From an uncultured Coriobacteriaceae bacterium (GTDB lineage: Bacteria > Actinomycetota > Coriobacteriia > Coriobacteriales > Coriobacteriaceae): DNA of 52,399 nt. This document shows, in pieces, positions 1 to 49,224 of this stretch (the first letter of the stretch is position 1; each line of letters starts with the position of its first letter). The stretch is taken from assembly GCA_944319885.1 (NCBI GenBank), contig CALUFC010000013.1, positions 1 through 52,399 of the forward strand, written 5' to 3'. Below the pieces are notes generated by a model. That model was not told where the DNA came from. It ran no database searches and saw only the letters and a program-made list of their open reading frames with translations. Both the position numbers and the translations under genes were made by a program.

Positions 1-150
1 GCTTCAATAGCGGAACAGCGGGAGTTCGCCGCATTCGCCGCCGAAGTCGACAAATCGCGGGTTGTCGTTCAGCAGCAGGTGCTTAAGTATAATGACGTAA
101 TAAGAGCTTCAAGTGAGACTGCGATTATCAGGCGAGGCGGGCTAGCATGA
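1..150 (+). CDS. hsdS: Type I restriction-modification specificity subunit HsdS, C-terminal fragment
   Basis: An open frame runs from base 1 to the TGA at 148-150 (49 codons), with its start outside the window. The peptide carries EQREFAAFAAEVDKSR followed by a helical tail. This matches the usual end of HsdS proteins (Q-x-EFA-x-F-x-x-x-VDKS-x), the conserved distal helix that closes the second target-recognition repeat. HsdS sets the DNA sequence recognised by the HsdR2-M2-S complex. Its stop overlaps the hsdR start by 4 nt (ATGA), so the two are translationally coupled, which supports the call. hsdM is presumably further upstream. Only the tail is visible, so target-domain types cannot be judged. 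Confidence 0.72.
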   Translation, partial: ASIAEQREFAAFAAEVDKSRVVVQQQVLKYNDVIRASSETAIIRRGGLA

Positions 151-3100: not shown

Positions 3101-3530
3101 CAAGGATTATGCCGATAACGTTGTTATTCACAAGCTTCGAACCAATAAGCCAATGACAGCATGTGAATTTAACCAGCTCGAACACATTTTTACTCATGAG
3201 CTTGGCAATGCGGAAGACTATGCGAAAGCATACGGAGATACTCCGTTCGGTCTGTTAGTTCGCAAGCTCGCCCACCTTGATAGGGATGCTGCTATGGAGG
3301 CCTTTGCGGGCTTTCTAAATGACCAGAGCCTCAATGAGCAGCAGATTTCGTTTATCAAGCGCGTGGTTGATTATGTGGTCGAGAATGGCTATTTGGAGCC
3401 TGCGGCTCTTAACAGCCCACCTTTCGATCGCCCACGGTCTTTCATGCAGATTTTTAACACTCAACAGCAGATGAATCTGGTGAGTGTAATCAAGTCAATC
3501 AAGGAGAATGCCATTTCTCCTGCCGCATAA
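147..3530 (+). CDS. hsdR: Type I restriction endonuclease subunit R (HsdR)
   Basis: 1127 aa ATP-dependent translocase and nuclease subunit of a type I R-M complex. The N-terminal ~130 residues look like a DUF4145-type helical domain, followed by a coiled coil (~165-195). The nuclease core has D248 and E263-A264-K265, a PD-(D/E)xK arrangement. The SF2 motor shows Walker A MATGTGKTR (~378), DEAH (479), LTATP (~510) and motif VI MIGRGTRL (~713). The long C-terminal region (~800-1127) fits the EcoEI-type R C-terminal domain that contacts the methylase. The length is normal for HsdR and no frameshift is seen. The start overlaps the upstream hsdS stop by 4 nt. Base composition is clearly lower in G+C than the 12-52 kb part of the window, consistent with lateral acquisition. 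Confidence 0.93.
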   Translation: MNFDFLKREDGYYSLFANACIEAEKVFATSPAMCAVGCRKALELAVKWVYAIDSDIHMPYRDNLSSLLHERSFMNTVDGRVWRKLLGINKLGNLSVHTERVVTPADAILVLRSLFEFIDWIDYCYGPDYSVRTFDERKIPKKGIQLTAAQIKAIKDRESLLVEKDEEIKRLEAELKKLSAQAAQIKGNDKPKRDFNPEDISEFETRKHYIDWDLALAGWKLDETALQEREVYGMPVEPGNNTGVGYIDYLLMGKNGRPLAVVEAKRTSYSEQKGLKQARLYARCLESEFGYKPPIFLTNGFTTLFVDDENGAPRSVSGFFSQEDLQRIINRRTSTLKPTTLSVDEKIAGGGRRYYQVEAIQRVCANIEEGHRKSLLVMATGTGKTRVSAALVDVLMRSGHVKNTLFLADRVALVRQAKHAYQDYLPHESLCNLCSNKDERNARIVFSTYPTIMNAIDGERNEDGDRMFTPAHFDLIIVDEAHRSIFRKYREIFTYFDALVVGLTATPANEVDRNTYDFFDVERGVPTYVYEYKTATEVDHVLVPYFGIETHTSFIDEGITYDELSPEEREQIEGDFEDVGQDVPDKIENTDLNRWVFNEETVDHVLVALMKMGIHVQGGQELGKSVIFAQSQKHARYIAERFGKLFPGLPGDYIQVVVHSDDYAHTIIEDFELKPCPVITVSVDMMDTGIDVPEIVNLVFFKRVRSKIKFWQMIGRGTRLCEGLNVVDPLDGVHEDKERFFIFDWCRNFEFFRENPNVVEGELAVSVAEQVFRRQAELALLLQDSAFASDGYRSWRKELIETMHSQVVALNDELFTVRKHRREVEKYRRIESFTLLSDVSLAELRNPISMLIVNNERDFSALRFDNIMYGYMIATCSARKADLYKSKLVGMARLLQSRTTIPQINEQLPLIKQIAEGEVLDGADLLFLEDIRKRLRSLIQFIIVGPPHRDVVTHLDDPVTQVVYGVTADIGDNFEDYRLKVERYLKDYADNVVIHKLRTNKPMTACEFNQLEHIFTHELGNAEDYAKAYGDTPFGLLVRKLAHLDRDAAMEAFAGFLNDQSLNEQQISFIKRVVDYVVENGYLEPAALNSPPFDRPRSFMQIFNTQQQMNLVSVIKSIKENAISPAA

Positions 3531-8010: not shown

Positions 8011-9378
8011 CTACAGCGTGAATTCGGCGAAGTCGGTGGGGTTGCGCGGGGCAGCGCCTGCGGCAACCGTTGTTGTGGACGAGCCGGATACCGCGGAGTC
8101 TCCGTAGCCGCCTGTCGCCTGCGTGCCGCCCACGTCTTGCAACAGCGCGGCGATATCGGCGTCGGGGTTTTGGTAGGCGATGTCCAGCAGCTCGATGAAG
8201 TCGCGAATGACCTCGCGCGGCGTGAGGTGCGTATCGGCACCCACGCGTCCGAACTCGATTTTGAGGAAGTCCACCAAGTTCGCTTCGGTGAGGCGTGCAG
8301 TATAGCCGTAATAGCCGGCGTGGATCTGCTGCAGCTTCTCGATGAGCACCAAGAGTTCTTCGTAGGTGAGCGGGTGCAGATGGATGATGGGCGCGAGCAT
8401 ATCGCGCATGCCCTCGCGGGCAAAGTGACCTTGTGTGAGGCGGCTGCGCAGGGCCTCGTAGCTGAAGACGCCGCGCCGGCGATCCTCGATGGACTGCGGC
8501 GTACCACCCATGATGACGCCCAGATGGTGCGCCTTGCCCTGCAGCGTGTCGTTGTACATCGTGAGGATCTTTTCGTAGTTGTACTGGCGCGTGACGGCGT
8601 TGGGGATCTTGAAGAGGTTCACGAGCTCGTCGATAAGCACGAGCAGGCCCTTGTAGCCCGCGCCGGTGAGGAACTGCGCAAAGAGCTTCACGTAGTCATA
8701 CCAGTCGTCGTCGCCGATGATCGCTGTCGTGCCCAGCTCGGTGCGGGCCTCGCTTTTGGTGCGATATTCGCCGCGCAGCCACTTGATAACGAGGCTCTTG
8801 GTTTCGTCGTCGTTCTCGAGCGAAGCGCTGCGGTAGCGGCGGAGCATGCGGGTGAAGTCAAAGCCGTGAACGAGCTCTTCGAGCGGCGCAAGGTGCGCCT
8901 CGAGCAGTTCATCTTCGGTTTCATGGACGTTATCAGAGCCTGTCGCGGCAACCGATTTCGTGCTTGCGACCCAGCGGTCGAGGATGAGCGTGAGCGCGCC
9001 GCCTTCGGGGCGCGTTTTGGTGGAGAGGTTGCGGATGAGCTCGCGGTACGTGGCGAGCCCCTGCCCTTGGCCACCCTGCAAGCGGCGCTCGGGGGAGAGA
9101 TCGGCATCGGCCACTACGAAGTTCTCGCCCATGGCATGTGTGCGGATGGTCTGCAGCAAGAAGCTCTTGCCCGCGCCGTATCGGCCCACGAGAAAACGGA
9201 ACGAGGCGCCGCCGTCGGCAATGAGGGAAAGGTCGGTAAGCAGCGCCCGAATCTCGGCCTCGCGGCCCACCGTGATATAGGGCAGACCGATACGCGGCAC
9301 CACGCCGCCTTTGAGCGAGTTCAAGATGACGGCCGCGACCCGCTTGGGTACGCGCGGTGCGTTTGCTGCGTTGTTCAT
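8011..9378 (-). CDS. BrxD-like P-loop ATPase (DUF2791 family)
   Basis: 455 aa. Walker A GRYGAGKS is at 65-72 and Walker B LLVLIDE at 245-251. The start (PRIGLPYITVGREAEIRALL) and the conserved DADLSPERRL stretch after Walker A match BREX-system ATP-binding protein BrxD / DUF2791, an ORC/Cdc6-like AAA+ group. Its probable role is to load or drive partner proteins on DNA. The tail (~420-445) is Gly/Thr/Ala-rich and looks disordered. It overlaps the upstream TerB-domain gene by 4 nt (ATGA), so coupling is tight. No PglZ, PglX or BrxC gene is in the window, so this is not a standard BREX locus. A generic AAA+ ATPase call would be the fallback. Confidence 0.82.
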   Translation of the reverse strand: MNNAANAPRVPKRVAAVILNSLKGGVVPRIGLPYITVGREAEIRALLTDLSLIADGGASFRFLVGRYGAGKSFLLQTIRTHAMGENFVVADADLSPERRLQGGQGQGLATYRELIRNLSTKTRPEGGALTLILDRWVASTKSVAATGSDNVHETEDELLEAHLAPLEELVHGFDFTRMLRRYRSASLENDDETKSLVIKWLRGEYRTKSEARTELGTTAIIGDDDWYDYVKLFAQFLTGAGYKGLLVLIDELVNLFKIPNAVTRQYNYEKILTMYNDTLQGKAHHLGVIMGGTPQSIEDRRRGVFSYEALRSRLTQGHFAREGMRDMLAPIIHLHPLTYEELLVLIEKLQQIHAGYYGYTARLTEANLVDFLKIEFGRVGADTHLTPREVIRDFIELLDIAYQNPDADIAALLQDVGGTQATGGYGDSAVSGSSTTTVAAGAAPRNPTDFAEFTL

Positions 9379-11282
9379 ATACCAAGCACCTCTCGTAGGT
9401 CGTCTCGATAATCTTCGATGAGTTCGGGTCCTGCGATACCGAACTCGATAACCGTGTCGCCGATTGCATCAAAGAGCTTCTCGTTGATACCATCGATCAG
9501 CATATCCTCGCTCGTTCCCGCAGGCACGGGAGCCGTCTCGCCCGTTAACAACGCAACTAGATACGCCCGTTCATCTGCGGTAAGCATGTTTTCGGTTTGT
9601 CCGGACGGCTCCGAGATCGCCGCCATCGAGGAGGCGGGCTCTGCCGATGGGTTCGCGGTGCCGGCATCGCATGCTCTGTCGCGACTTTCAGAATGATCCG
9701 CCGTCCCAGCTGGCTGCGGCATGTCCCCGCGCGCAGTTCCACAGGCAAGCGGAGCGCGGCCGAGGACTGTCTGAGCACGGGGACATGCCGCGGCCTCGGT
9801 TGGGGGCGACGGCTCGTCTTCGCGCTCCTCGTCGATGAGCAGCGCCTCGCGTGTCTCGGCAGCCGCGCTGCGAATGCCAGAGAGCTGCGAGAGGTCGATG
9901 TCGATCACGCGCGGCGCATGGTCGCGCTTCCACGCAAGCCACGAGGAGATTTCCCGTTCGATGATGCGCGCGAGGTATTTGGGCGCGCCCTCGTCTTCAA
10001 GCGGCGTCTCGCATGCCAGTGCCGTGCGCAGCAGCCGGTCGATGGCATGTAGGATATCGCCGAGCTTGCTGCTGCGGCCCCGCCCGCCGTAGATGCGCGT
10101 GCAGGTCCACAGGCCGCGTCGGCAGGTGTAGCGGTGGATGGGGTCGAGTTCGTACTCGGTGTCCTCGTGTGTCTGGGGGTCAAAGAAGACCGCGGATCCA
10201 AACATGGTGTACGACATGGTAGTCATCTCTCCAAAGGCGCTCTCGATGAGCCCTTTTGTTCGATGGCCCCGATAGTACGCAAGCATGCGGACAAAAACCG
10301 CGCATGTCACATGGCGCAGGTCGTCATGGTGCGCCCGCTCGAGCGGCGAATCGCACAGGCGATGCGCCGAGAGCCGGTCGAGCATCTCGAACAGACGCTC
10401 CTCCCACGCCTTGTCGGGCGGCAGGGGAGCAGCCTCGAGGTTGGCGGGTGCTGACGGAACCGCCCCCTCTTCCTCGGATATTCCTAGAGCACGCGCGGCA
10501 TCCGCATCGTATGGCGCACAGAGCTCCACCAGTTCGAGGATGTTGCGATCAAAGCTGATCGAGGTGTCGTCAAGTTCAATGAGCGCAGGGTCGAGCCCAT
10601 GGTAGACCGCGTAGTCCTTGAGCCAGGGGCGCACGGTGCGGTTGAACTCGGGGGAGAAGTCGCGATAGGCGAGCCAAAACGAGCGGATCTTCTCGAACCC
10701 GTCGCGCGGGCTCTCGATGCCAACCCCGCACAGAAGCTCGTAGAGGTAGACGAAGGCAAACGCGGTAGGCGCTTCTTGCACGTCGCCGCGTCGCACGGCG
10801 GCGCGCCACGTGAAATAGCCACGCAGCTGACGGTTGCTCATTTCGTTATACGTGGGGCAATACGAGCGAAACGATCCCTCGTACGGGCAGGTATCCTCGA
10901 AATCCGCCATGAAGTGGGCCTGCTTGTAGAACAGTTCGGCCTCGGTGAGCCATCGCCCGCGCCCCGCGTCTTGCTCCCAGCGCGAGATGGCGCGCATCTC
11001 GCGGTAGCGGTGGGGGAAGCTCGTATCGAGATGCCGCGTACGAACTGATGCATCGAGTTCGAACTGATCGAAGATACTCACGGGGCGTGGCGCCGGCTGC
11101 GGCGCGCCTTGATGCTGCTGCCGGCGCGCAGCGCGCTCCCGATCGCGCATGAGCTGACGTCCCGTTTTGATGATGGGCTCCCCGCACGAGACGGAGTCTG
11201 AGAAGTGCGAGCTGCTGCGCAGGTGCTCGCCGGTGTTAAGTCGGTGTATCAGCTCCTGGATATCAATCGGATGGTCCTCCAC
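9375..11282 (-). CDS. TerB N-/C-terminal domain protein of the BrxD-like/helicase cassette
   Basis: 635 aa from the GTG at 11282, chosen because GGGGAGG sits 7 nt upstream. An ATG at 11312 is in frame but has no ribosome site. The region ~85-240 is a TerB-N domain: RYREMRAISRWE, then RGYFTWRAAVRRGD and FVYLYELLCGVG. The end (LTADERAYLVALLTGE, INEKLFDAIGDTVIEFG, IEDYRDDLREVLGI) is a TerB-C domain. Between them lies a helical region with a charged, Ala/Ser/Pro-rich linker (~500-570). I see no TerB core domain. TerB-N/TerB-C proteins have been predicted from gene neighbourhoods to work with a P-loop ATPase and an SF2 helicase, which is exactly the set here. The name does not imply tellurite resistance. 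First gene of the minus-strand run. Confidence 0.8.
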   Translation of the reverse strand: MEDHPIDIQELIHRLNTGEHLRSSSHFSDSVSCGEPIIKTGRQLMRDRERAARRQQHQGAPQPAPRPVSIFDQFELDASVRTRHLDTSFPHRYREMRAISRWEQDAGRGRWLTEAELFYKQAHFMADFEDTCPYEGSFRSYCPTYNEMSNRQLRGYFTWRAAVRRGDVQEAPTAFAFVYLYELLCGVGIESPRDGFEKIRSFWLAYRDFSPEFNRTVRPWLKDYAVYHGLDPALIELDDTSISFDRNILELVELCAPYDADAARALGISEEEGAVPSAPANLEAAPLPPDKAWEERLFEMLDRLSAHRLCDSPLERAHHDDLRHVTCAVFVRMLAYYRGHRTKGLIESAFGEMTTMSYTMFGSAVFFDPQTHEDTEYELDPIHRYTCRRGLWTCTRIYGGRGRSSKLGDILHAIDRLLRTALACETPLEDEGAPKYLARIIEREISSWLAWKRDHAPRVIDIDLSQLSGIRSAAAETREALLIDEEREDEPSPPTEAAACPRAQTVLGRAPLACGTARGDMPQPAGTADHSESRDRACDAGTANPSAEPASSMAAISEPSGQTENMLTADERAYLVALLTGETAPVPAGTSEDMLIDGINEKLFDAIGDTVIEFGIAGPELIEDYRDDLREVLGI

Positions 11283-11381
11283 GCGCCCACCTCCCCATCG
11301 TCTCGCATGCATACTGGGTAATCATTTATTCTACCACGGATGCAAACAAACGTTCGGTTTCGTAGGTGGATTCTTTTGAGC

Positions 11382-29690: not shown

Positions 29691-29712
29691 CCGTGGGGTG
29701 CGATGTGCGCGT

Positions 29713-32700
29713 CTACGCGAAGTAGTTCACGCCGCTCTCGAAGACGGGCATGAACTTCTCGCCCGGGACGTTTTGATACAGGCCCGTGCCGCGGCGCTCA
29801 ACGTGGCCCATCTTGCCGAAGACGCGACCATCCGGGCTCGTGATGCCCTCGATGGCAAGAACCGAGCCGTTGGGGTTCACGTCGAGGTTCATGCTGGGCA
29901 TGCCCGCCTCGTCCACGTACTGCGTAGCGATCTGGCCGCCGGCGATAAGCTGCGACAGCACCTCGTCGTTCGCTACGAAGCGGCCCTCGCCATGGCTGAT
30001 GGCGACGGTATAGGTGTCGCCCGGCGTGCACGCCGAGAGCCACGGGGAGAGGTCGCTTGCCACGCGCGTGCGCACCAGGCGGCTCTGATGGCGGCCGATG
30101 GTGTTGAACGTGAGCGTGGGTGCGTCGCTCGTCGCCTCGACGATGTCGCCATAGGGTACGAGGCCGAGCTTCACGAGTGCCTGGAAGCCGTTGCAGATGC
30201 CGAGCATGAGGCCGTCGCGCTTCTGCAGCAGCTCGCGCACCGCCTCGGTGACCTCGGGCGCGCGAAAGAAGGCGGTGATGAACTTGGCAGAGCCGTCCGG
30301 CTCGTCGCCGCCGGAGAAGCCGCCGGGGATCATGACGATCTGGCTCTCGCGGATGCGACGCGCGAGCTCGTGGGTGCTTTCGGCCACGGCTTCGGGCGTG
30401 AGGTTGTTGATCACGAACGTGTCGGCCACGGCGCCTGCCGCCGTGAAGGCGCGCGCCGTGTCGTACTCGCAGTTGGTGCCCGGGAAGACGGGGATGATCA
30501 CGCGCGGGCGGGCAAACCGCTCGCCAGCGTAGACGGGTGCGATGCGGCCCTCGTCGGCGCAGCGATAGGTTACCGGTTCGACCTGCGGGAGCTCGGCGGC
30601 CTCAGCGGCGGGCGTGCGGTAGGCGAAGACGCTCTCGATGCCGCTCTCCCAGATTTCCTGCAGCTCGGCAAGATCGATGACCTCGTGCTTCCTGCCGATA
30701 TAGGTGAGCTCGTACTCCTCGGTCGTCTCGCCCAGCTCGATGACGTCGAACGCGTCGCCGAACGGCGCAAGCTCCGCATCGTCGGCGAGCTCCACGATGA
30801 AGCTGCCGTAGGCGTAGTCGGTGAGGTCGATGCCGTCGTGATCCTCGATGCCGGGAGTGTAGGAGAAGCCGATGCGGTTGCCCACACAGGCCTTGAACAC
30901 GGCCTCCGCCACGCCACCAAAGCCCGGGGTCGAGATGGAGCACGCCGCGCCGCTGCGCACGAGATTCTCAACGTAGGCAAACGCCGCAAGAAGGCTCGGA
31001 GCTTCGGGCAGGATGCCGCCCCACTCGTAGCGCGGGCTGACGAGCGCAACGCGCCGGCCGGCGGCCTTGAACTCGGGGGAGACGATGGTATCGAGCGTGC
31101 CGGTGGCAACGGCGAAGGAGACGAGCGTGGGCGGCACGTCAAGGTCCTCGAAGGAGCCCGACATGGAGTCCTTGCCGCCAATGGCGCCGATGCCCAGATC
31201 GACCTGCGCCATGAGTGCGCCGAGGACGGCCGCCGTGGGCTTGCCCCAGCGCTCGGGCACGTCGCGCAGACGCTCGAAGTACTCCTGGAACGTGAGGTAG
31301 GCGCGGGTATGGTTGAAGCCGGTCGCCACGAGCTTGGCGACGCTCTCCACCACGGAGAGGTATGCGCCGCGATATTGATCGGCTTCCATGAGGTACGGGT
31401 TGAAGCCCCATGCCATACCGGAGACCGTGGTGGTCTCGCCCATCACCGGGAACTTGGCAACCATCGCCTGCGCCGGCGTGAGCTGCGTGGCGCCACCGAA
31501 GGGCATGAGCACCGTGCCGGCGCCAATGGTGGAGTCGAAGCGCTCGGAAAGGCCCTTGTTGGAGCATACGTTGAGATCGGCCACGAGCGTGCGCATCGCA
31601 TCGGCAAACGTCTCGGCATCGTCGCCGGGAGCCGCGGGGACGTTTGCGCCGCCTTGCTCGAGCACATGCACGGCCTGGTGCTTCGGAGCGCCGTTCGAGG
31701 CGAGGAACGCGCGGGAGAGGTCTACGATCACGTCGCCGTCCCAGGCCATGCGCACGCGCTTCTCGTGCGTGACCTCGGCGATAACCGTAGCCTCGAGGTT
31801 CTCCTCGTGGGCGTAGGCCATGAACTCATCGACGTCGTCCTCCGCCACGGCTACGGCCATGCGCTCCTGGGACTCCGAGATGGCGAGCTCGGTGCCGTCG
31901 AGGCCCTCGTACTTCTTGGTCACCTGGTCGAGGTCGATGTAGAGGCCATCGGCCAGCTCGCCCACGGCGACGGCCACGCCGCCCGCACCGAAGTCGTTGC
32001 AGCGCTTGATGAGGCGGCATGCGTCTTCGCGGCGGAAAAGGCGCTGGAGCTTGCGCTCCATAGGCGCGTTGCCCTTCTGGACCTCGGCACCGTCTTTTTC
32101 GATGGACTCGACGTTATGTGCTTTGGAGGAACCGGTGGCGCCGCCGATGCCGTCGCGACCGGTACGGCCGCCGAGCAAGATGATCTTGTCGCCGGGTTGG
32201 GGCTCTTCGCGGCGCACATGGCTTGCGGGCGTGGCGCCTACGACGGCGCCGATCTCCATGCGCTTGGCCACATAGCCGGGGTGATAGAGCTCGGAGACCT
32301 GTCCCGTGGCCAGGCCAATCTGGTTGCCGTAGCTGGAGTAGCCGGCGGCGGCGGTGGTCACGAGCTTGCGCTGCGGGAGCTTGCCGGCCATGGTCTCGGA
32401 CACCGGCACCGTGGGGTCGGCCGCGCCGGTCACGCGCATGGCCTGGTAGACGTAGCTGCGGCCCGAGAGCGGGTCGCGAATGGCACCGCCGATGCAGGTC
32501 GCCGCGCCGCCGAAGGGCTCGATCTCGGTGGGGTGGTTGTGGGTCTCGTTCTTGAAGAGGAAGAGCCAGTCCTCATCCTCGCCGTCCACGTCTACCGTGA
32601 CCTTCACGGTGCAGGCGTTGATCTCCTCAGATTCATCAAGGCCGGTGAGCTGGCCGGTGTGTTTCAAGTACTTGGCGCCGATGGTGCCCATGTCCATGAG

Positions 32701-33489
32701 GCAGACGGGCTTCTCGTCGCGGCCGAGCTCGTGGCGCATCTGCATGTAGCGGTCGAAGGCGGCCTGCACCACGGCGTCGTCGATCGTGACATCGTCGAGC
32801 ACGGTGCCGAAGGTGGTGTGGCGGCAGTGGTCGGACCAATAGGTGTCGATGACGCGGATCTCGGTGATCGAGGGGTCGCGGCCCTCGCCGCGGAAGTACT
32901 CCTGGCAAAACGTGATGTCGGCGAGGTCCATGGCGAGGCCCAGGCGCTCGATCATGTCGGCGAGGCCCGCCTCATCGAGTTCGCAGAAGCCTTCGAGCAC
33001 CTCGACGGGTTCGGGTTCGGGAATCTCGGTGGCCAGCGTGTCGGGCTTTTCAAGCGACGCCTCGCGCGCCTCAACCGGGTTGATGACGTAGCGCTTGATC
33101 GCCTCGATGTCCGCGGCGCTCACCTCGCCAGCGATGACGTACACCTTGGCGCAGCGCACGGTTGGGCGCTCGCCTTGCGAGATGAGCTGGATGCACTCAG
33201 CGGCGGAGTCGGCGCGCTGGTCGAACTGGCCGGGCAGCGATTCAACGGCGAACACCGTGCCCGTTGTCTGCGGCATATCGTCGCTCGCGGTATCGACCTG
33301 CGGCTCGGAAAACACGGTGGGCACGCACGCGCGGAACAGCTGCTCGTCGATGCCCTCCACGTCGTAGCGGTTGATGAGCCGCAGTTCCGTGATGCCCGTG
33401 ATCCCGAGGATGTCCGTGAGCTCGCCCTTGAGCTGCTGAGCCTCAACGTCAAAGCCCGGCTTCTTCTCTACATAGATGCGAGAGACCAT
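29713..33489 (-). CDS. purL: Phosphoribosylformylglycinamidine synthase, large single-chain form
   Basis: 1258 aa. It converts FGAR, ATP and glutamine to FGAM, the fourth step of purine synthesis. The start MVSRIYVEKKPGFD at 33489 was chosen over an upstream ATG because the PurS-like domain begins here and AAGGGCGG precedes it. Order: PurS-like domain, linker with DTYWSDHCRHTTF (catalytic His region), FLFKNETHNHPTEIEPF-GGAATC (FGAM synthase P-loop-like segment), second PurM-like half, then a C-terminal glutaminase. The glutaminase Cys1099 is in GICNGFQ, with HGEGRF downstream. The fused glutaminase means no separate PurQ or PurS is needed. A possible minus-strand -10 (TATCAT) lies at 33529-33534. 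Confidence 0.96.
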   Translation of the reverse strand: MVSRIYVEKKPGFDVEAQQLKGELTDILGITGITELRLINRYDVEGIDEQLFRACVPTVFSEPQVDTASDDMPQTTGTVFAVESLPGQFDQRADSAAECIQLISQGERPTVRCAKVYVIAGEVSAADIEAIKRYVINPVEAREASLEKPDTLATEIPEPEPVEVLEGFCELDEAGLADMIERLGLAMDLADITFCQEYFRGEGRDPSITEIRVIDTYWSDHCRHTTFGTVLDDVTIDDAVVQAAFDRYMQMRHELGRDEKPVCLMDMGTIGAKYLKHTGQLTGLDESEEINACTVKVTVDVDGEDEDWLFLFKNETHNHPTEIEPFGGAATCIGGAIRDPLSGRSYVYQAMRVTGAADPTVPVSETMAGKLPQRKLVTTAAAGYSSYGNQIGLATGQVSELYHPGYVAKRMEIGAVVGATPASHVRREEPQPGDKIILLGGRTGRDGIGGATGSSKAHNVESIEKDGAEVQKGNAPMERKLQRLFRREDACRLIKRCNDFGAGGVAVAVGELADGLYIDLDQVTKKYEGLDGTELAISESQERMAVAVAEDDVDEFMAYAHEENLEATVIAEVTHEKRVRMAWDGDVIVDLSRAFLASNGAPKHQAVHVLEQGGANVPAAPGDDAETFADAMRTLVADLNVCSNKGLSERFDSTIGAGTVLMPFGGATQLTPAQAMVAKFPVMGETTTVSGMAWGFNPYLMEADQYRGAYLSVVESVAKLVATGFNHTRAYLTFQEYFERLRDVPERWGKPTAAVLGALMAQVDLGIGAIGGKDSMSGSFEDLDVPPTLVSFAVATGTLDTIVSPEFKAAGRRVALVSPRYEWGGILPEAPSLLAAFAYVENLVRSGAACSISTPGFGGVAEAVFKACVGNRIGFSYTPGIEDHDGIDLTDYAYGSFIVELADDAELAPFGDAFDVIELGETTEEYELTYIGRKHEVIDLAELQEIWESGIESVFAYRTPAAEAAELPQVEPVTYRCADEGRIAPVYAGERFARPRVIIPVFPGTNCEYDTARAFTAAGAVADTFVINNLTPEAVAESTHELARRIRESQIVMIPGGFSGGDEPDGSAKFITAFFRAPEVTEAVRELLQKRDGLMLGICNGFQALVKLGLVPYGDIVEATSDAPTLTFNTIGRHQSRLVRTRVASDLSPWLSACTPGDTYTVAISHGEGRFVANDEVLSQLIAGGQIATQYVDEAGMPSMNLDVNPNGSVLAIEGITSPDGRVFGKMGHVERRGTGLYQNVPGEKFMPVFESGVNYFA

Positions 33490-33599
33490 TCCGTCCGCCC
33501 TTCTGTGGCTGGGTTGCATACCGTCCCTATGATACCAGCGGCAGCGCCAGCAGGGTGCCACGGTGGGTCATCGGATAGCACATGTTTGACATATCGTAG

Positions 33600-33681
33600 A
33601 GGTCGCCCGAAAGGTTCCTCGCAAACGTTCTCGGCGCTGCGCGCCTGCGGGATGTTTGCTCGGAATCCTTTCGGGCGACCT
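33600..33681 (+). other. Long conserved-core hairpin B (copy 2 of 4), between hom and purL
   Basis: The 15-bp perfect outer stem is AGGTCGCCCGAAAGG (33600-33614) with 33667-33681. The core reads GTTCTCGGCGC, loop TGC, GCGCCTGCGGG. The TCC/GGA pairs of the other copies become TTC/GGG here, which still pair. The inner ~54 nt are nearly identical to copy A while the outer stems differ. It lies 12 nt past the hom stop, but the core is in plus orientation, antisense to hom. Confidence 0.6.
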
Positions 33682-33693
33682 TCAGCAGAGACG

Positions 33694-35040
33694 CTAGTCG
33701 TTTTTCTCCACGCCGTCGAGCCAAGCGTTCACATCTTCGATGCGGATGACGCTTGCCACGCTTTCGACGTCATCGAGTGTGTTCAGCGCGTGGCAGACGG
33801 CCTCCACATCACATTCGCGGGCGAGGTGCGTGAGGAACACGACGGAGCAGGTGCCGTCGCCGCCGTCTGCGAGCTGGTTCACCGCTGAGATGGAGATGCC
33901 GGCATCGGCGAAGGCCTTGACCACGGGCGCCAGCGCGCCGGTGCGATCTGCGATGGAGAGGCGGATGTAGTAGCGTGTTTCAAGGTCGGCGATCTGCCGA
34001 ATGGGGAGCGTGCGTGCATACGGCTCGCTCTCGGGTGCTGGGGCCGCGCCATGCGCGATGGGCTGCGCGAGCTCGAGGATGTCGCCCACCACGGCGCTCG
34101 CGGTGGGGAAGGAGCCCGCGCCGGCACCGTAGAACATGGTCTCGCCCACGGCGTCGCCCACCACGTATACGGCGTTCATCGCGCCCGATACGCTGGCGAG
34201 CATGTGGTCGTGTGGAATCATGACCGGGTGCACGCGCGCATCGATGCCCGAGGCGGTCCAGCGGGCGATGCCGAGCAGCTTGATGGCATAACCCAGCTCG
34301 CGCGCCTGGTCGATATCGGCTGCCGAGACATTGCGGATGCCCTGCATGTAGACATCGTCGGTGGTGACGCGCGTGTGGAAGGCAATCGAGGAGAGGATGG
34401 CCACCTTGCTGGCGGCATCGAAGCCGTCCACATCGGCCGTGGGGTCTGCCTCGGCATAGCCCAGGCGCTGCGCATCGGCGAGCACCTCGGCGAAATCGAG
34501 GCCTTCTGCGGTCATGCGCGAGAGGATGTAGTTGGTGGTGCCGTTCAAGATGCCGGCGATGCACAGCACGTTGTTGCCCACGAGGGCGTGCTCGAGGGCG
34601 TTGACCACCGGGATGCCGCCGGCAGCCGCCGCCTCGCACCTCAGCTGCACGCCGTGTTCGGCGGCAAGTGCCGCCAGGCGCTCAACATGGCGACCGAGCA
34701 GCGCCTTGTTTGCCGAGACCATGTGCTTGCCGCTTGTGAGCGCCGCCTCGAAGATCTCGGTCGCAGGGTGCTCGCCGCCAATGAGCTCGACGACGATGTC
34801 GATATCGGAATCCGAGGTGACGTCGTGCCAGTCGGTCGTGAAGGTGGCGGGGTCGAGCCCGAGTTCGTCTGCGCGCGCGGGTTCGAGGCCGCAGGCGCGA
34901 GCGATCTTGAGGTCGATGCCATAGGCGTGGAGGTACTCGTCGTGGTGGCGCATGATGAGCCGCGCGGTGCCGCCGCCCACCGTGCCCAGACCGATGAGGC
35001 CGACGTTGACGGTGCGCGTCTTTGCCTGGGTGCTCTGCAT
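33694..35040 (-). CDS. hom: Homoserine dehydrogenase
   Basis: 448 aa from ATG 35040 (CGAGGAGGAA site). It reduces aspartate semialdehyde to homoserine with NAD(P)H, feeding threonine and methionine synthesis. The Rossmann start is VNVGLIGLGTVGGGTARLI. The family signature is CEAAAAGGIPVVNALEHAL, then AGILNGTTNYILSRM, and YAEADPTADVDGFDA is the substrate loop. The C-terminal ACT domain (~355-440, YIRLSIADRTGALAPVVKAF) suggests threonine feedback. A weak -10-like TACAAT is at 35107-35112 on the minus strand. Stand-alone, not fused to aspartokinase. Confidence 0.95.
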   Translation of the reverse strand: MQSTQAKTRTVNVGLIGLGTVGGGTARLIMRHHDEYLHAYGIDLKIARACGLEPARADELGLDPATFTTDWHDVTSDSDIDIVVELIGGEHPATEIFEAALTSGKHMVSANKALLGRHVERLAALAAEHGVQLRCEAAAAGGIPVVNALEHALVGNNVLCIAGILNGTTNYILSRMTAEGLDFAEVLADAQRLGYAEADPTADVDGFDAASKVAILSSIAFHTRVTTDDVYMQGIRNVSAADIDQARELGYAIKLLGIARWTASGIDARVHPVMIPHDHMLASVSGAMNAVYVVGDAVGETMFYGAGAGSFPTASAVVGDILELAQPIAHGAAPAPESEPYARTLPIRQIADLETRYYIRLSIADRTGALAPVVKAFADAGISISAVNQLADGGDGTCSVVFLTHLARECDVEAVCHALNTLDDVESVASVIRIEDVNAWLDGVEKND

Positions 35041-42643: not shown

Positions 42644-42699
42644 GGGAGCGTTCAACAGCTCGACCTGCCGCAGCGGGTCATATTACAAGGACGTTCACC

Positions 42700-45600
42700 A
42701 TGGCATCGCTTACCACGAGCCGCCGCTGGGCGGTAGCTCCCGAGAACCCAGATCTTGCCCGTCAACTCGCTAACGAACTCGATATCGCATCGATGGTCGC
42801 GCGCATCATGGTCGCGCACGGCATCACCTCCGTCGAGGAGGGGCGGCTCTTCCTCACGCCGTCGCTTGAACGCGACTGGGCGGATCCCTCGCTCATTCCC
42901 GGCATGGCCCAGGTTGCCGATCGCGTGCAAGCCGCTATCGAGCAGGGGGAATCGATCGCCGTGTTCGGCGATTTCGATGTCGACGGCATCACATCGACTT
43001 GCCTGCTCACCGAGGCGCTGCGCACGCTGGGTGCGCATGCGGAGCCGTTCATTCCCCGCCGGTTCGACGAGGGGTACGGCTTGTCGCAGGCGGCGCTCGA
43101 TCGCGTGGTGGACGCCTGCGCGCCGTCGCTCGTCATCACGGTGGACAACGGCATCGCGGCACGCGACGAGGTGGCTTACCTTTCCGCTCGCGGCATCGAT
43201 CTGGTGGTAACCGATCATCATGAGCCGGCCGATCTCGTACCAGAGAGCATACCGTTGACCGATCCCAAGCTCGACGAGGCGGGCCCATCGCGCGAGCTCG
43301 CCGGAGCCGGCGTGGCGCTCAAGCTCGTGCAGGTGCTGGGGGGGCGCATGGGCGCCCCCGATCTGTGGCGCTCGCTTACCGAGGTCGCGGCGCTTGGTAC
43401 CGTATCCGATATGATGCCGCTCACGCCCGAGAACCGCGCGTTGGTGGCAGACGGCATCGCCCAGATGCGCGCGACCGCGCGGCCCGGCTTCATCGCGCTC
43501 GCAACGCTCGCTCGCACAGATATCTCCGCGATCACCGCAGACGGGCTCTCGTTCTCGCTCATCCCACGTCTTAACGCAGCGGGGCGCATGGCGGATCCCG
43601 CGCTCGCCCTCGACGTGCTGCTCGAGCGCGACCCGGTGCGCGCCTCCGCGCTTGCCGCGCAGCTGGAAGAGATCAACCAGGAGCGGCGCGACATCGAAGC
43701 CAAGCTCACCGATGAGGCGCTTGCGCTGGTGAAGAAGACCTATACCGGCGGGCACGTGATCGTCGTGGGCGGCGAGGGCTGGCATGAGGGCGTCAAAGGC
43801 ATCGTGGCGAGTCGCATCGTCAACAGCTTCCACGTGCCAGCGTTGCTGTTCTCCATCGAAGACGGCATCGCGCGCGGCTCGGGGCGCTCGGTGGGATCGA
43901 TCAACCTGTTCGATGCCGTCGAACAGTGCTCCGATCTGCTTATCAGATTCGGCGGTCATGCGGGCGCGGTGGGCGTGACGCTCGAGGCGGCGAATCTCGA
44001 TCGGCTGCGCGATCGGCTGGAGGCCGTGCTCTCCCAGCTGCCCAGCGAGGCATTCGAGGACACCGGGGAGGTTGCGGCCACGGTCGAGCTCTCGGAGCTC
44101 GATATCGCGTCGATTGAGCAGATCTCGCTGCTCGAGCCGTTTGGCCAGGGCAATCGCGTGCCGCTGCTGGCGGCGACGAGCGTGACCATGGGAGATCGGG
44201 CCTGCGTGGGAAAGACCGGCGATCACCTGCGCTTTACCGCGACGGACGGCGTGTCGAGCGTGGCTGCCATCATGTTCCGCGCACCTGACATCGACGAGCT
44301 CGTTGCCTGCGATAGCGTAGTCGACCTTGTGTTCGAGGCCGTGGCCGAGCGCTGGCAGGGGCGTGTGAAGCCAAAGCTGCTCGTCAAAGATATCCTGCGC
44401 CACGACCGCTCGGATGGCGATACCGGCAGCGCCGACGCCGATCAGGCAATCGCTCGCCTGTTCGAGCAGCCCGAAAAGGATACCGCGCCGTCCGACGCAT
44501 GCCTGGCAGCGGCGGCGCCGGAGACGGAACCGCGTGCGACCGAGCGCCGCCACGCGTTCGAGCAGCTCTCGTACGCAGAGGCAACGCGCTCGCTCGTGCA
44601 CAGCCTTATCGGCGACGGTACGCTCCATGCCGCGCAAGAGGAGGCGCTGGCTTGTCTTGCGCGTGATGAGAGCTGCCTTGCCATCATGGGGACGGGGCGC
44701 GGCAAGTCGCTTGTGTTCCAGGTGCATGCGATGCGCGAGGCGCTTCTGCGGCACCGCGCGAGCATCTTCGTCTACCCCTTGCGCGCGCTCGTGGCAGATC
44801 AGGCGCTGCACCTTATGTCGTGCTGTGCGTCGTGCGGTCTGCGCGCGAGCGTGCTCACCGGTGAGAGCTCCCCGTCCGAGCGCGCTGCCGCATTCAAAGC
44901 GCTCGCATCGGCATCGCTCGATATCGTGCTCACAACACCTGAGTTTCTCTCGATCCATCTCGATCGCTTTGCCGCGACGCGGCGCGTGGGGTTCGTGGTG
45001 ATCGACGAAGCGCACCACATGGCCGAAGCCTCCGGTGGCGACCGGAGCTCCTACCTCGATATGCCGCGCGTGCTCGAGCGCTTGGGCGCGCCCACGGTGC
45101 TCGCCGTCACCGCGACCGCCGACGCGCGCGTGGCGGCCTCGATTCGCGAGCTGCTGCCGATACGCCGCGAGATCATCGACGACGCCGCACGGCCCAATCT
45201 CGAGCTCGAGGACGATCGCGACCTTGCCACGAGGGAAACCCGGCTGGTCTCCCTCGTGGCTACCGGCGAGAAATGCGTGATCTACGTGAACTCGCGCGAG
45301 CAGACCGTCTCGCTTGCCCGGATGCTGCGCAAGCGCATCCCCGAGCTCGCCGGAGCGGTCGCGTTTTACAACGGAGGCCTCGGGCGGGCGATGCGCACGC
45401 GCATCGAGACGGCATTTCGAGACGGGGCGCTGCGCTGCATCGTTTCGACCTCGGCGTTTGGAGAAGGTGTCAACCTTCCCGATATCCGCCATGTCGTGCT
45501 CTACCACATGCCGTTTTCCGCGGCTGAGTTCAACCAGATGAGCGGCCGTGCGGGCCGCGACGGCGCGACGGCGCACATTCATCTCATGTATTCATCGCGC

Positions 45601-46044
45601 GATGCGCGCATCAACGAGCGCATCCTTGAGACGGCGGCCCCCGAGCGTGATGAGCTGGTGACGCTCTATCGCACGCTTAAGACCATGCAGCGCTCGATGG
45701 GGGCAGATGCTCGCTCGCATGCGCTCGCGGCAACCGATGCGCAGATCGCCGACATGTGCCGCGCCGTCGATGCGCGCTGCGCGCCCGATGAGCGAACGGT
45801 CGCCAGCGGCATCGCGATCTTCGAGGAGCTGGGCTTCGTGCGCGTCGAGGGCTTTGGAGAGACGCGCCATCTGCTCATGACCGACCATCCCGGTCATATG
45901 GCGCTCACAGATTCCATCCGCTATCTCGAGGGGCTGCGGGCGAAGCTGGCGTTTTCAACGTTTCGCAGCTGGGCGCTTACGGCGCCGGCTCATGATATGC
46001 TTGCACGAGTACGCCATCCCATCACGCCCGGGGTGGCAGGATAG
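42700..46044 (+). CDS. recJ: RecJ exonuclease fused to a RecQ-like helicase
   Basis: 1114 aa. Residues ~1-560 are RecJ: GDFDVDGITSTCLL (D91 region), DNGIAARDE, DHHEPADL (172), LNAAGRMADP, WHEGVKGIVASR and RFGGHAGAVGVTLE, then the OB-fold segment (FGQGNRVPLL). Residues ~610-1050 are an SF2 helicase: Walker A MGTGRGKSLVF (663), YPLRALVADQ, DEAH (769-772), AVTATADARV, VNSREQTVSL, VSTSAFGEGVNLPDIRHV and SGRAGRDG. The helicase order is RecQ-like, but there is no recognisable zinc or HRDC domain. RecJ (5'-3' ssDNA exonuclease) and RecQ act together in gap and RecFOR repair. Here both lie in one chain with no frameshift. The start has an AAGGA site. Confidence 0.9.
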   Translation: MASLTTSRRWAVAPENPDLARQLANELDIASMVARIMVAHGITSVEEGRLFLTPSLERDWADPSLIPGMAQVADRVQAAIEQGESIAVFGDFDVDGITSTCLLTEALRTLGAHAEPFIPRRFDEGYGLSQAALDRVVDACAPSLVITVDNGIAARDEVAYLSARGIDLVVTDHHEPADLVPESIPLTDPKLDEAGPSRELAGAGVALKLVQVLGGRMGAPDLWRSLTEVAALGTVSDMMPLTPENRALVADGIAQMRATARPGFIALATLARTDISAITADGLSFSLIPRLNAAGRMADPALALDVLLERDPVRASALAAQLEEINQERRDIEAKLTDEALALVKKTYTGGHVIVVGGEGWHEGVKGIVASRIVNSFHVPALLFSIEDGIARGSGRSVGSINLFDAVEQCSDLLIRFGGHAGAVGVTLEAANLDRLRDRLEAVLSQLPSEAFEDTGEVAATVELSELDIASIEQISLLEPFGQGNRVPLLAATSVTMGDRACVGKTGDHLRFTATDGVSSVAAIMFRAPDIDELVACDSVVDLVFEAVAERWQGRVKPKLLVKDILRHDRSDGDTGSADADQAIARLFEQPEKDTAPSDACLAAAAPETEPRATERRHAFEQLSYAEATRSLVHSLIGDGTLHAAQEEALACLARDESCLAIMGTGRGKSLVFQVHAMREALLRHRASIFVYPLRALVADQALHLMSCCASCGLRASVLTGESSPSERAAAFKALASASLDIVLTTPEFLSIHLDRFAATRRVGFVVIDEAHHMAEASGGDRSSYLDMPRVLERLGAPTVLAVTATADARVAASIRELLPIRREIIDDAARPNLELEDDRDLATRETRLVSLVATGEKCVIYVNSREQTVSLARMLRKRIPELAGAVAFYNGGLGRAMRTRIETAFRDGALRCIVSTSAFGEGVNLPDIRHVVLYHMPFSAAEFNQMSGRAGRDGATAHIHLMYSSRDARINERILETAAPERDELVTLYRTLKTMQRSMGADARSHALAATDAQIADMCRAVDARCAPDERTVASGIAIFEELGFVRVEGFGETRHLLMTDHPGHMALTDSIRYLEGLRAKLAFSTFRSWALTAPAHDMLARVRHPITPGVAG

Positions 46045-46063: not shown

Positions 46064-48403
46064 ATGGACGCTGCAACCCGCGCGGCGCACGACGCGTCGC
46101 TACAACCGTTCTCCGAGATGATGCACTACACGCATGCGGATGACCTCCCGCCCGAGATCTGCGCCGACAACTACGATCGCCTTGCCAAGCTGTGCAGCAA
46201 GTACATGAACGAGGCCGATCAGGCGCTCATGGAGCATGCGTACTGCTTTGCCGCCGAGAAGCACTCGGCGCAGAAGCGCCGCTCGGGCGAGCCCTATATC
46301 AATCATCCCGTCGAGGTCGCCATCATCTTGGCCGAGCTCAAGATGGATTGCGACGTGGTGTGCGCGGCGCTTCTGCACGACACCGTCGAGGATACCGAGG
46401 TCTCCCTGGCCGATGTGCAGGGTATTTTCGGTGAGACCGTTGCCGAGTTGGTCGACGGCGTCACAAAGCTCACGAACATCGAAGTCGACAACATGGATGA
46501 GAAGCAGGCGCTGAACCTGCGCAAGATGTTCCTCGCCATGTCGAAGGACATCCGCGTCATCATCGTCAAGCTCGCCGACCGCTTGCACAACATGCGCACC
46601 CTGGCCGCGCTGCGCGAGGACCGGCGCCTGTTCAAGGCTCGTGAGACCATGGACGTGTATGCGCCGCTCGCCGATCGCCTGGGCATGAGCTCCATCAAAT
46701 GGGAGCTCGAGGATCTGTCGTTCTTCTACCTCGAGCCCGAGGCGTACCAGCGCATCGCGCGCATGGTGGCCGAGAGCCGCGAGGCGCGCGAGCGCTTCCT
46801 CGCCGAGACGATCAAGACGCTTACCGACGAGCTCCACCGCGTGCACCTTGACGGCTTCCAGATCAACGGCCGCTCCAAGCACTACTGGTCGATCTACCAG
46901 AAGATGAAGCGCAAGGGCAAGGAGTTCTCCGAGATCTACGACCTCGTGGCGTTTCGCGTGATCACGCGCACCGTAGGCGACTGCTACTCGGTGCTGGGTG
47001 CGGTCCACTCGCTGTGGCATCCCATGCCCGGGCGGTTTAAAGACTATATCGCCATGCCCAAGTTCAACAACTACCAGAGCCTGCATACCACGGTCATCGG
47101 TCCCACCGCGCGCCCGCTTGAGATCCAGATTCGCACCTATGAGATGCATGAGCAGGCAGAATATGGTATCGCGGCGCACTGGCTCTACAAGCGGTCGGGC
47201 GGCTCGACGGCAACGAAGTCAACCGATGCGCAGCGTCTCGACGAGCAGATCAACATGCTCAAGCATTCGCTCGATTGGGCGGCGTCAGATGATATCGACG
47301 ACCCCAAGGAGTTCCTGCATTCGCTGAAGGTCGATTTGTACGACCAGGAGATCTTCGTGTTCACGCCCAAGGGCGAGGTCATGAACCTGCGCGCGGGCTC
47401 GACGCCGCTCGATTTCGCCTATGCCGTGCATACCGAGGTGGGCAACCATTGCGTGGGCGCCAAGATTAACGGTGTGGTGGCGCCGCTCACGCACGTGCTG
47501 CTCACCGGCGACCGCGTGGAGATCCTCACCAACAAGAACGCCAAGCCCTCGCGCGACTGGCTCAACATCGTGAAGACCCCTTCGGCGAAGTCGAAGATAC
47601 GGCGCTATTTCGCCGCGGCTACCAAGGATGACGATGCTGCTGCCGGCCGCGAGGTGCTTGCAAAAGACCTGCGCAAACGCGGATACGGTATCTCCACGCC
47701 GCGTTCGACGCGCGCACTCAACGCCGTGTGCGAGCAGTTCAGCTATCGCCGCCTCGAGGACCTGTTCGCCGCCGTGGGGGCGGGCAAGATCGCGCCGCGC
47801 TTGGTGGGCAACAAGGTCCAGCAGATCCTCGATCCCAAGCCCGAGGTGCCTGCCGCGCCCGCGCCCGAGGTGCCGCCGCGCGGGTCGAACCGCCGTCCGC
47901 GCCGCGCCGACAAGGGCAGCTCCGGCGTGGTGGTGAAGGGCTCTGCCGATTCGGGCCTGCTTGTGCGTCTCGCGCATTGCTGCAACCCCGTGGCGGGCGA
48001 CGACATCGTGGGCTTCGTCACGCGCGGGCGCGGCGTCTCGGTGCATCGCGCGAACTGTCCCAACGTGAAGGGGCTCATGGAGCACCCCGAGCGCATGATC
48101 GAGGTCGAATGGGACACTGGCGCCGAGGCGACCTTCCAGGTGGAGATCGTCGTCGAGTGCCTTGATCGCATGGGGCTGTTGAAGGACGTCACCATCGCCA
48201 TCGGCGAGGCGGGCGCGAACATTCTCTCGGCGGCAACCTCGACTACGCGCGACGGCGTCGCCGTGCTGCGCTTCTTGGTGGAGATTTCCGATGCAAGCGG
48301 GCTTGATCCGCTGCTTGCCGCGATCAGCCGGGTGGAAAGCGTGTACGATGCGCGTCGCCTCATGCCGGGCGAGGGCTCGTCCCAGATGAAGCGCAGGGGG
48401 TAG
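46064..48403 (+). CDS. rel: Bifunctional (p)ppGpp synthetase/hydrolase Rel
   Basis: 779 aa long RSH enzyme. The hydrolase HD is intact in AALLHDTVEDTEVS (H105-D106). The synthetase carries AFRVITRTVGDCYSVLG, RFKDYIAMPK and YQSLHTTV. The RFKD motif (R324) is the basic type seen in bifunctional Rel/SpoT rather than RelA-only enzymes. A TGS domain (IFVFTPKGEVMNLRAGSTPL, ~430) and a C-terminal ACT domain (~700-775) follow. GAGGA ribosome site; only 19 nt separate it from recJ-recQ. It controls the stringent response. Long hairpin C lies 13 nt past the stop. Confidence 0.95.
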   Translation: MDAATRAAHDASLQPFSEMMHYTHADDLPPEICADNYDRLAKLCSKYMNEADQALMEHAYCFAAEKHSAQKRRSGEPYINHPVEVAIILAELKMDCDVVCAALLHDTVEDTEVSLADVQGIFGETVAELVDGVTKLTNIEVDNMDEKQALNLRKMFLAMSKDIRVIIVKLADRLHNMRTLAALREDRRLFKARETMDVYAPLADRLGMSSIKWELEDLSFFYLEPEAYQRIARMVAESREARERFLAETIKTLTDELHRVHLDGFQINGRSKHYWSIYQKMKRKGKEFSEIYDLVAFRVITRTVGDCYSVLGAVHSLWHPMPGRFKDYIAMPKFNNYQSLHTTVIGPTARPLEIQIRTYEMHEQAEYGIAAHWLYKRSGGSTATKSTDAQRLDEQINMLKHSLDWAASDDIDDPKEFLHSLKVDLYDQEIFVFTPKGEVMNLRAGSTPLDFAYAVHTEVGNHCVGAKINGVVAPLTHVLLTGDRVEILTNKNAKPSRDWLNIVKTPSAKSKIRRYFAAATKDDDAAAGREVLAKDLRKRGYGISTPRSTRALNAVCEQFSYRRLEDLFAAVGAGKIAPRLVGNKVQQILDPKPEVPAAPAPEVPPRGSNRRPRRADKGSSGVVVKGSADSGLLVRLAHCCNPVAGDDIVGFVTRGRGVSVHRANCPNVKGLMEHPERMIEVEWDTGAEATFQVEIVVECLDRMGLLKDVTIAIGEAGANILSAATSTTRDGVAVLRFLVEISDASGLDPLLAAISRVESVYDARRLMPGEGSSQMKRRG

Positions 48404-48546: not shown

Positions 48547-49224
48547 GTGATCGGGTTGAAGCTTGATCTTGATCCCAGGGGTCACGTTCAGATTGAAAAC
48601 GCGGTGAATGGTCCCATCGAGACGAATACGTATTTCGTTATCTCAGGGGATGAGGCTGTGGTGATCGACCCTGCGTGGGAGGGGGAGAAGCTCGCCGCCT
48701 CGTTTGCCGGGCGGCATCCCGATACCACCATCAAGGCGATCGTGTGCACGCACGGGCATGCCGACCACACGTGTGGCGTGGCTGGCATGCGGCAGGCGCT
48801 TGGTACGGGCGTGCGCTTTCTGCTACCTGCGGCGGATGCGGGGATCGTCGCGGGGAGCATCGCGCATCAAAAGGCGGTCTGGGGCATCGATGCTCCCGAT
48901 CCGGGTGCTGCTGATGAGCTCATCGAAGAGGGCGCGACCGTTGCGGTGGGTGACGTTGTGCTGCAGGTGTTTGCGGTGCCGGGGCACACGCCGGGCGGCA
49001 TCGTGCTGTTCGCCGCCACCGAGGATGGCAACATCGCATTCGTGGGCGATACGCTGTTCCCGGGCAGCCATGGGCGCACCGATCTGGAAGGGGGCGATGA
49101 GCGCGCGATCATCGCCTCGCTGGCGAAGATGGCGACGCTGCTCCCGCCCGACACGCTGTGTCTCACCGGGCACGGCGCCGCCACGACCATCGCCGATGAA
49201 ATCGAGCACAATCCGTTTTTCTAG
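48547..49224 (+). CDS. MBL-fold metallo-hydrolase (glyoxalase II-like)
   Basis: 225 aa from GTG 48547; TTG 48556 has better spacing from AAAGGG and would drop three residues. The metal site is THGHADHTCG (H69, H71, D73, H74), with further ligands in VPGHTPGGIVLF and VGDTLFPGSHGRTD. The start QIENAVNGPIETNTYFVI is typical of YcbL/glyoxalase II-like small hydrolases. Substrate is unknown; hydroxyacylglutathione is unlikely in an organism of this type, which probably lacks glutathione. Confidence 0.85.
   Translation: MIGLKLDLDPRGHVQIENAVNGPIETNTYFVISGDEAVVIDPAWEGEKLAASFAGRHPDTTIKAIVCTHGHADHTCGVAGMRQALGTGVRFLLPAADAGIVAGSIAHQKAVWGIDAPDPGAADELIEEGATVAVGDVVLQVFAVPGHTPGGIVLFAATEDGNIAFVGDTLFPGSHGRTDLEGGDERAIIASLAKMATLLPPDTLCLTGHGAATTIADEIEHNPFF

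Follow-up and report, generated by a model that had tools for sequence, protein, structure and literature searches.

The cooperation of RecQ and RecJ, in which RecQ opens the DNA while RecJ degrades the freed 5' strand, is textbook knowledge and has been studied with two separate proteins. Motor and nuclease are also coupled, making 3' single-stranded DNA (ssDNA), in RecBCD/AddAB, Sgs1(BLM)-Dna2 and HerA-NurA. The nucleases of these systems are unrelated to the one described here, which is a RecJ-type nuclease joined to a RecQ-type motor in one chain. By itself RecJ works on 5' ssDNA tails, and blunt or 3'-tailed ends need RecQ, a 3'-5' helicase; no direct contact between the RecQ and RecJ of D. 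radiodurans was seen (PMC4846377). In this work we analysed a 52,399-nucleotide stretch of DNA from an uncultured Coriobacteriaceae bacterium (GenBank contig CALUFC010000013.1; the whole stretch is called the window below), in which positions 42700-46044 of the plus strand hold a recJ-helicase fusion gene. We consider its product to be, most probably, a single-chain helicase-nuclease for DNA resection, whose motor would open the duplex in the 3'->5' direction while RecJ takes the displaced 5' strand.

A comparable arrangement is found in Bacteroidota, where the recJ and recQ genes are adjacent or overlapping (Parabacteroides, L129; Bacteroides, L130). The functional pairing at one locus is the same, but two proteins are made there, and the separate helicase of 636-641 amino acids (aa), annotated as RecQ, is 25-29% identical to the fused helicase. 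This gene pair lends independent support to nuclease-motor coupling. No paper describing the fusion, or PF10141 as a helicase relic, was found in the open literature, a search that did not cover most subscription journals; database annotators may well be aware of the fusion architecture already.

Architecture of the fusion protein

The gene is a single ATG-started frame coding for 1114 aa, with tattacaaggacgttcacc just upstream of the start codon at 42700. Along the protein follow a complete RecJ (DHH-DHHA1-OB), a short linker, an equally complete RecQ-type superfamily 2 (SF2) helicase and a winged-helix tail in the place of the zinc and HRDC parts of RecQ (Table 1). The RecJ half (aa 31-565) matches TIGR00644 at 465.6 bits, over the curated cut-off of 396.9, and keeps the catalytic motifs FGDFDVDG (89-96), TDHHE (171-175) and GGH (418-420). 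RecJ motifs are intact in all 59 fusions that were aligned (44 from the class Coriobacteriia together with Oleimmundimicrobium, and 15 from Bacillota). This half is predicted to be a 5'-3' ssDNA exonuclease. It has the nuclease domains and the fold of the RecJ proteins of E. coli, D. radiodurans, T. thermophilus and S. aureus, but the fusion adds a full, motor-competent helicase, whereas the RecJ of the S. aureus/Bacillus type has only a decayed remnant (PF10141).

The helicase half carries a RecQ-type SF2 core with motifs 0 and I-VI, among them Walker A (MGTGRGKS, 663-670), DEAHH (769-773), TATA (803-806), TSAFGEG (917-923) and QMSGRAGRDG (946-955). Of the 59 fusions, 58 have intact motifs I, II (DE[ASC]HH) and V (T[ST]AFGEG), one of them with a conservative motif I variant (MGTSRGKS); the sole exception, L255, has every helicase motif broken. 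The helicase half is under constraint as strong as that on the RecJ half (mean identity 0.47 and 0.44, respectively). Could the fused helicase be mainly a structural or recruiting module, with an ATPase of little importance? The fold is indeed kept without a motor in the full-length but motif-dead L255 and in PF10141-type remnants. Motifs kept in 58 of 59 fusions would, however, be unexpected without selection on ATP hydrolysis, and we regard such a role as quite improbable.

The affiliation of the motor was examined with profiles. The region aa 632-1000 matches RecQ profiles below their curated cut-offs (TIGR01389, 192.1 versus 640.2 bits; TIGR00614, 179.5 versus 219.8 bits), and hhalign aligned the fused helicase with true RecQ at E=1.6e-50. 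In Pfam searches, neither RQC, RecQ_Zn nor HRDC (a domain that not every RecQ has) was among the families listed for the window protein and 44 helicase halves, and the 59 aligned fusions have no conserved cluster of Zn cysteines after the helicase core, a single column there exceeding 20% Cys. The core is thus shared with the RecQ family (E. coli RecQ, BLM, WRN and RecQL4), whereas the aromatic-rich loop of the fusion is without the RecQ tryptophan (EASGGDRSSY in the window protein). Because of the scores under the RecQ cut-offs, the lack of Zn, RQC and HRDC parts and the winged-helix tail of its own, we concluded that, as judged from its sequence, the RecJ-fused helicase is RecQ-like and not RecQ.

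The full-length AlphaFold2 model has a predicted local distance difference test score (pLDDT) of 87.8; its linker is floppy at 572-577 and at 590-608. The nuclease half resembles RecJ folds (Z 41-50), and the model of the helicase half (pLDDT 92.3) is nearest to WRN, BLM, RecQL4 and RecQ (Z 25-30). The best sequence matches in the PDB were RecJ structures for the first half of the protein and RecQL4, RecQ, BLM and WRN for the second. The region aa 981-1114 corresponds to the PF10141 region of other RecJs.

These results can be set against the initial annotation, made from the sequence alone, which had proposed a natural RecJ-RecQ fusion in one uninterrupted 1114-aa frame, with DHH motifs (D91 region and DHH 172), complete SF2 motifs (Walker A at 663, DEAH at 769) and no evident Zn or HRDC parts. 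The frame was confirmed, and so were the motifs (D91/D93 and D172-H173-H174; 663-670 and 769-773); the missing parts were borne out by Pfam and by the Cys alignment. The fusion is natural, with both active sites intact and conserved, but the name RecQ was too strong. The structure prediction that it recommended returned a RecQ-like fold. Three features escaped it for want of database tools: HIRAN in sister lineages, the occurrence of the fusion in Bacillota, and helicase decay to the C-terminal domain of RecJs elsewhere.

A 976-aa frame lies antisense over the fusion gene (42652-45582, minus strand), and four relatives have similarly long antisense frames. A Pfam search with this frame gave no match; it is a by-product of GC-rich codons (GC content at third codon positions, 0.80).

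Distribution, co-inheritance and the HIRAN linker

A domain search across Coriobacteriia, also recommended in the initial annotation, found the fusion to be near-universal: by manual count, about 139 of the 147 RecJ-bearing genomes (149 class genomes sampled) have it in one frame of 1050 aa or more. Among the 8 exceptions, the helicase is on another contig in four (G055, G109, G081 and G117), G025 has the gene split across two contigs, and in G119 it is cut at a contig end; G007 and G085 are discussed below. A scan of the genome contigs gave 73 frames with both halves, and the other loci shown were cut by contig ends. Chance or assembly error as the origin of the fusion was rejected, the architecture being conserved over whole families. 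Named relatives with the fusion include Collinsella, Olsenella, Slackia and Parafannyhessea, the nearest to the window protein being that of Collinsella massiliensis (70% identity), which identifies the class as Coriobacteriia. Outside the class, the fusion was found in Ca. Oleimmundimicrobium, Orenia and Thermincola; among the Bacillota genomes sampled, about 15 of 149 (~10%) have it.

The two halves are evidently inherited together, with RecJ and helicase distances correlated at r=0.85 among the 59 proteins and at r=0.83 among the 19 from outside the class (none of 1000 permutations reached such a value in either set). The backbone of the RecJ tree is weak and does not allow fusions, losses and transfers outside the class to be counted, the only well-supported event being the loss in G007/G085. 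The fusion may be ancestral or may also have been transferred, though the RecJ and helicase distances agree. The distribution also bears on whether the helicase serves in anti-phage defence or in another conflict. The PADLOC profile of the defence helicase DpdF matches aa 626-1010 at 206 bits, and a stand-alone HIRAN-helicase (L245, genome G471) is found apart from recJ. A DpdF match is, however, expected of any RecQ-like helicase, and nearly every genome of the class has the fused motor, which has passed down vertically together with recJ and stands in a recJ-relA-MBL gene order that different phyla share; a conflict role therefore appears extremely improbable.

RecJ and helicase are separated by 45-75 aa in the family of the window protein and in most of its order, and by ~160-190 aa in nearly all other families, Oleimmundimicrobium and Bacillota. 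The longer stretch holds a HIRAN domain (PF08797; Orenia 3.8e-16, Oleimmundimicrobium 7.7e-16, Thermincola 4e-12, class member L091 4e-10), which is over the gathering score in relatives L164, L183, L200, L109 and L091. A Pfam scan found no HIRAN in the window protein, and L079, from the same order, has only a decayed trace (0.088). Loss of HIRAN in this order would be the simplest history. Relatives of the window protein thus resemble other HIRAN proteins (HLTF/Rad5 and bacterial HIRAN fusions) in having HIRAN beside an SF2 motor, although the motor of HLTF is a SWI/SNF translocase, not of the RecQ type, and the window protein itself is without HIRAN.

The HIRAN domain of HLTF recognises ssDNA 3' ends and drives fork remodelling (PMC4666394). 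Its presence in most lineages of the fusion would suit a processor of stalled forks. There the winged helix or, ancestrally, HIRAN would bind the nascent 3' end, and RecJ would trim the nascent lagging strand at a fork remodelled by the motor. In E. coli, blocked forks are processed by RecQ and RecJ, according to the work of Courcelle and Hanawalt as reported in PMC4846377. HIRAN is, however, absent from the window protein and from most members of its order, and the nearby genes are relA and an MBL hydrolase, with no fork-specific partner. We consider this role unlikely as the principal one; it and break resection are not mutually exclusive.

The C-terminal domain of other RecJ proteins

Many helicase-less RecJs have an additional C-terminal domain, which in Bacillota is partly Pfam ssDNA-exonuc_C (PF10141). 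Of 44 fused helicases, 14 gave a weak match to PF10141 (best 4e-4). In profile-profile comparisons, the fused helicase was matched by the C-terminal domains of Actinomycetota RecJs (98.4%, E=7e-15, 238 columns), by an extended Bacillota set (99.8%, E=9e-28, 317 columns) and by PF10141 members taken by themselves (98.9%, E=1.7e-17, 213 columns, beginning just past RecA1 and running to the end). The best E was 0.07 for reversed and column-shuffled controls and 0.34 for 30 shuffles of the larger set, and the RecJ C-terminal domains matched true RecQ far more weakly (best E 1.7e-4).

In structure comparison, the full-length model is best matched by S. aureus RecJ (8y30), in an alignment of 639 residues that is collinear through the C-terminal domain and reaches residue 735 of the chain and 1083 of the model; core-only RecJ structure matches align 522-527 residues. 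The overall root-mean-square deviation to 8y30 is large because the two modules are positioned differently. When PDB sequences were searched with a profile of the Actinomycetota C-terminal domains, no RecJ chain was recovered and the matches were weak ones, through a winged helix, to ribosomal eS19, so the link to S. aureus RecJ rests on the structure and on the Bacillota relatives. The C-terminal domain of Deinococcus RecJ was described in 2015 as having no defined homologue (PMC4663267). In our structure comparison no relationship emerged for the C-terminal domains of Deinococcus/Thermus RecJ: D. radiodurans RecJ 5f56 aligned over the core only (527 residues), and 5f54 gave an ambiguous extension.

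Among the 149 Bacillota genomes, 12 have PF10141 over the cut-off and 15 have the fusion, with no overlap; in one fused genome (G421), a weak PF10141 signal falls inside its own fused helicase. Genome G471 (Bacillota) has a full-length fused helicase with all motifs dead and no HIRAN (L255, 515-3787, minus strand). Apart from recJ, the same genome encodes a stand-alone HIRAN-helicase of this family that is intact (L245:2816-4786, plus strand), and it thereby captures, as a natural snapshot, the departure of the motor from RecJ. Besides L255, the intermediates are L268, of which 419 aa can be aligned to the two helicase domains, and L273, L274 and L277 (277-303 aa); PF10141 forms have 213-242 aa.

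We concluded, with near certainty, that the C-terminal domain of helicase-less RecJs in many other Bacillota and Actinomycetota, PF10141 included, is a shrunken, ATPase-dead remnant of the fused helicase, which keeps RecA2 and the winged helix and has no motor motifs. The direction is that of decay, since growth of a RecQ-motif motor out of such a stump is highly improbable. The remnant presumably acts as a binding or bracing module. On balance, and with a slight preference only, we favour a history in which an early RecJ of Bacillota/Actinomycetota consisted of nuclease, HIRAN end-sensor and RecQ-type motor in one chain. The motor would have stayed active in Coriobacteriia and scattered Bacillota, HIRAN would have been lost in the order of the window, and in many other lineages the motor would have died and shrunk to the orphan C-terminal domain of Bacillus and Staphylococcus RecJ, a pseudo-helicase for bracing RecJ or for recruiting its partners.

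Proposed resection mechanism and genomic context

In the proposed resection, the RecQ-type motor would translocate 3'->5' on the surviving strand and open blunt ends, 3'-tailed ends or gap edges that are closed to RecJ alone. The complementary 5'-ended strand would be peeled off and degraded 5'->3' by the tethered RecJ. Both active sites would then advance in the same direction into the duplex, leaving a 3' single strand for RecFOR/RecA. HIRAN, where present, would most likely hold the 3' end to start the motor; the lineage of the window may have dropped it because loading is done otherwise. We infer polarity, coupling, hand-over and the main substrate (breaks, gaps or stalled forks) by analogy.

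Several observations weigh against this reading. The helicase scores under the RecQ cut-offs, so its polarity and substrate are inferred, and the linker is predicted to be flexible, so the model does not display the strand hand-over. G007 and G085, of one genus, kept RecJ and lost the helicase, which makes the motor dispensable at least there; in the RecJ tree they nest within the fused clade with strong support. Finally, the genome of the window holds other resection routes, in a separate 660-aa RecQ at C1:337737 and an AddA-like frame of 1206 aa at C4:94476-95819. Locus L094 of G007 keeps the secDF-recJ-relA-MBL neighbourhood, and this genome is also without RecQ; the G085 locus is L124.

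A single-chain resection machine, as the initial annotation had supposed, is still the best reading of the sequence, both active sites being intact and conserved. Replacement of RecQ by the fusion was rejected for this genome, in view of the separate RecQ. The initial annotation had named a separate recQ together with an ATPase-dead helicase half as evidence that would count against it; the recQ is present, and the helicase half, by its motifs, is not dead. By manual count, the best RecQ match is weak (best E above 1e-70) in 37 of 100 class genomes. The fusion is the sole RecQ-like helicase in 36 of these and may stand in for RecQ there; G007 has neither. RecO was found in 40 of 40 class genomes, which makes the RecF pathway available. 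There is probably an AddAB-type route as well, since AddA-like frames of ~1150-1400 aa are found throughout the class, every one under the AddA cut-off.

Downstream, the fusion gene is followed by relA/spoT and a gene for a metallo-beta-lactamase (MBL)-fold hydrolase. The relA gene begins 19 bases past the stop codon of the fusion, so the two are probably co-transcribed. The recJ-relA order is repeated in L094, L133 and L134, and the MBL hydrolase stands in the same order at L094 and at Monoglobus L134.

Table 1. Coordinates of the fusion gene, its domains and the conserved neighbours in the window.
Feature	Coordinates	Strand	Evidence
recJ-helicase fusion gene, 1114 aa	42700..46044	+	Pfam/TIGR domain matches; conserved in class
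DHH domain, aa 86-234, with D91/D93 and DHH 172-174	42955..43401	+	PF01368 E=1.7e-21; motifs conserved across 59 fusions
DHHA1 domain, aa 352-445; GGH 418-420 invariant	43753..44034	+	PF02272 E=8e-14
RecJ OB domain (RecJ_OB), aa 460-564	44077..44391	+	PF17768 E=2.6e-20
Short linker, aa 566-631	44395..44592	+	Low model confidence 572-577, 590-608; HIRAN at same place in sister families, none in window
RecA1 domain (Pfam DEAD), aa 645-810: motifs 0, I (663-670), Ia, Ib, II (DEAHH 769-773), III	44632..45129	+	PF00270 E=2.8e-23
RecA2 domain (Pfam Helicase_C), aa 849-955: motifs IV, V (917-923), VI (946-955)	45244..45564	+	PF00271 E=1.2e-22
C-terminal region, aa 981-1114: helices, winged-helix-like unit ~1008-1060, terminal helices	45640..46041	+	Model secondary structure; weak PF10141 match; hhalign
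relA/spoT gene, conserved neighbour	46064..48403	+	Pfam HD_4, RelA_SpoT, TGS, ACT
MBL-fold hydrolase gene, conserved neighbour	48547..49224	+	Lactamase_B E=7.5e-25

Elsewhere in the window, two long frames overlap on opposite strands. The minus-strand frame (29713-33561) is PurL-like (FGAR-AT linker, AIRS_C, GATase_5); the 1396-aa plus-strand frame (29698-33888) gave no match and is probably spurious. A 1127-aa protein encoded at 147-3530 (plus strand) is like a type I restriction R subunit (HSDR_N, ResIII, EcoEI_R_C, DUF4145). A 645-aa protein with TerB_N and TerB_C (9375-11312, minus strand) has a DEAD-box helicase nearby (4980-7349, minus strand), possibly a stress or defence neighbourhood.

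The fusion joins in one polypeptide a cooperation of two proteins, so that point mutations in one active site or the other can probe coupling, directionality and hand-over. With HIRAN, a likely reader of 3' ends lies between the nuclease and the motor. The remnant gives an origin to the orphan RecJ domain of model bacteria (Bacillus, Staphylococcus), and the question of what that domain does becomes a test of a dead helicase. For the gut-bacterial class Coriobacteriia, a likely resection enzyme can now be named, which sometimes occurs without another RecQ.

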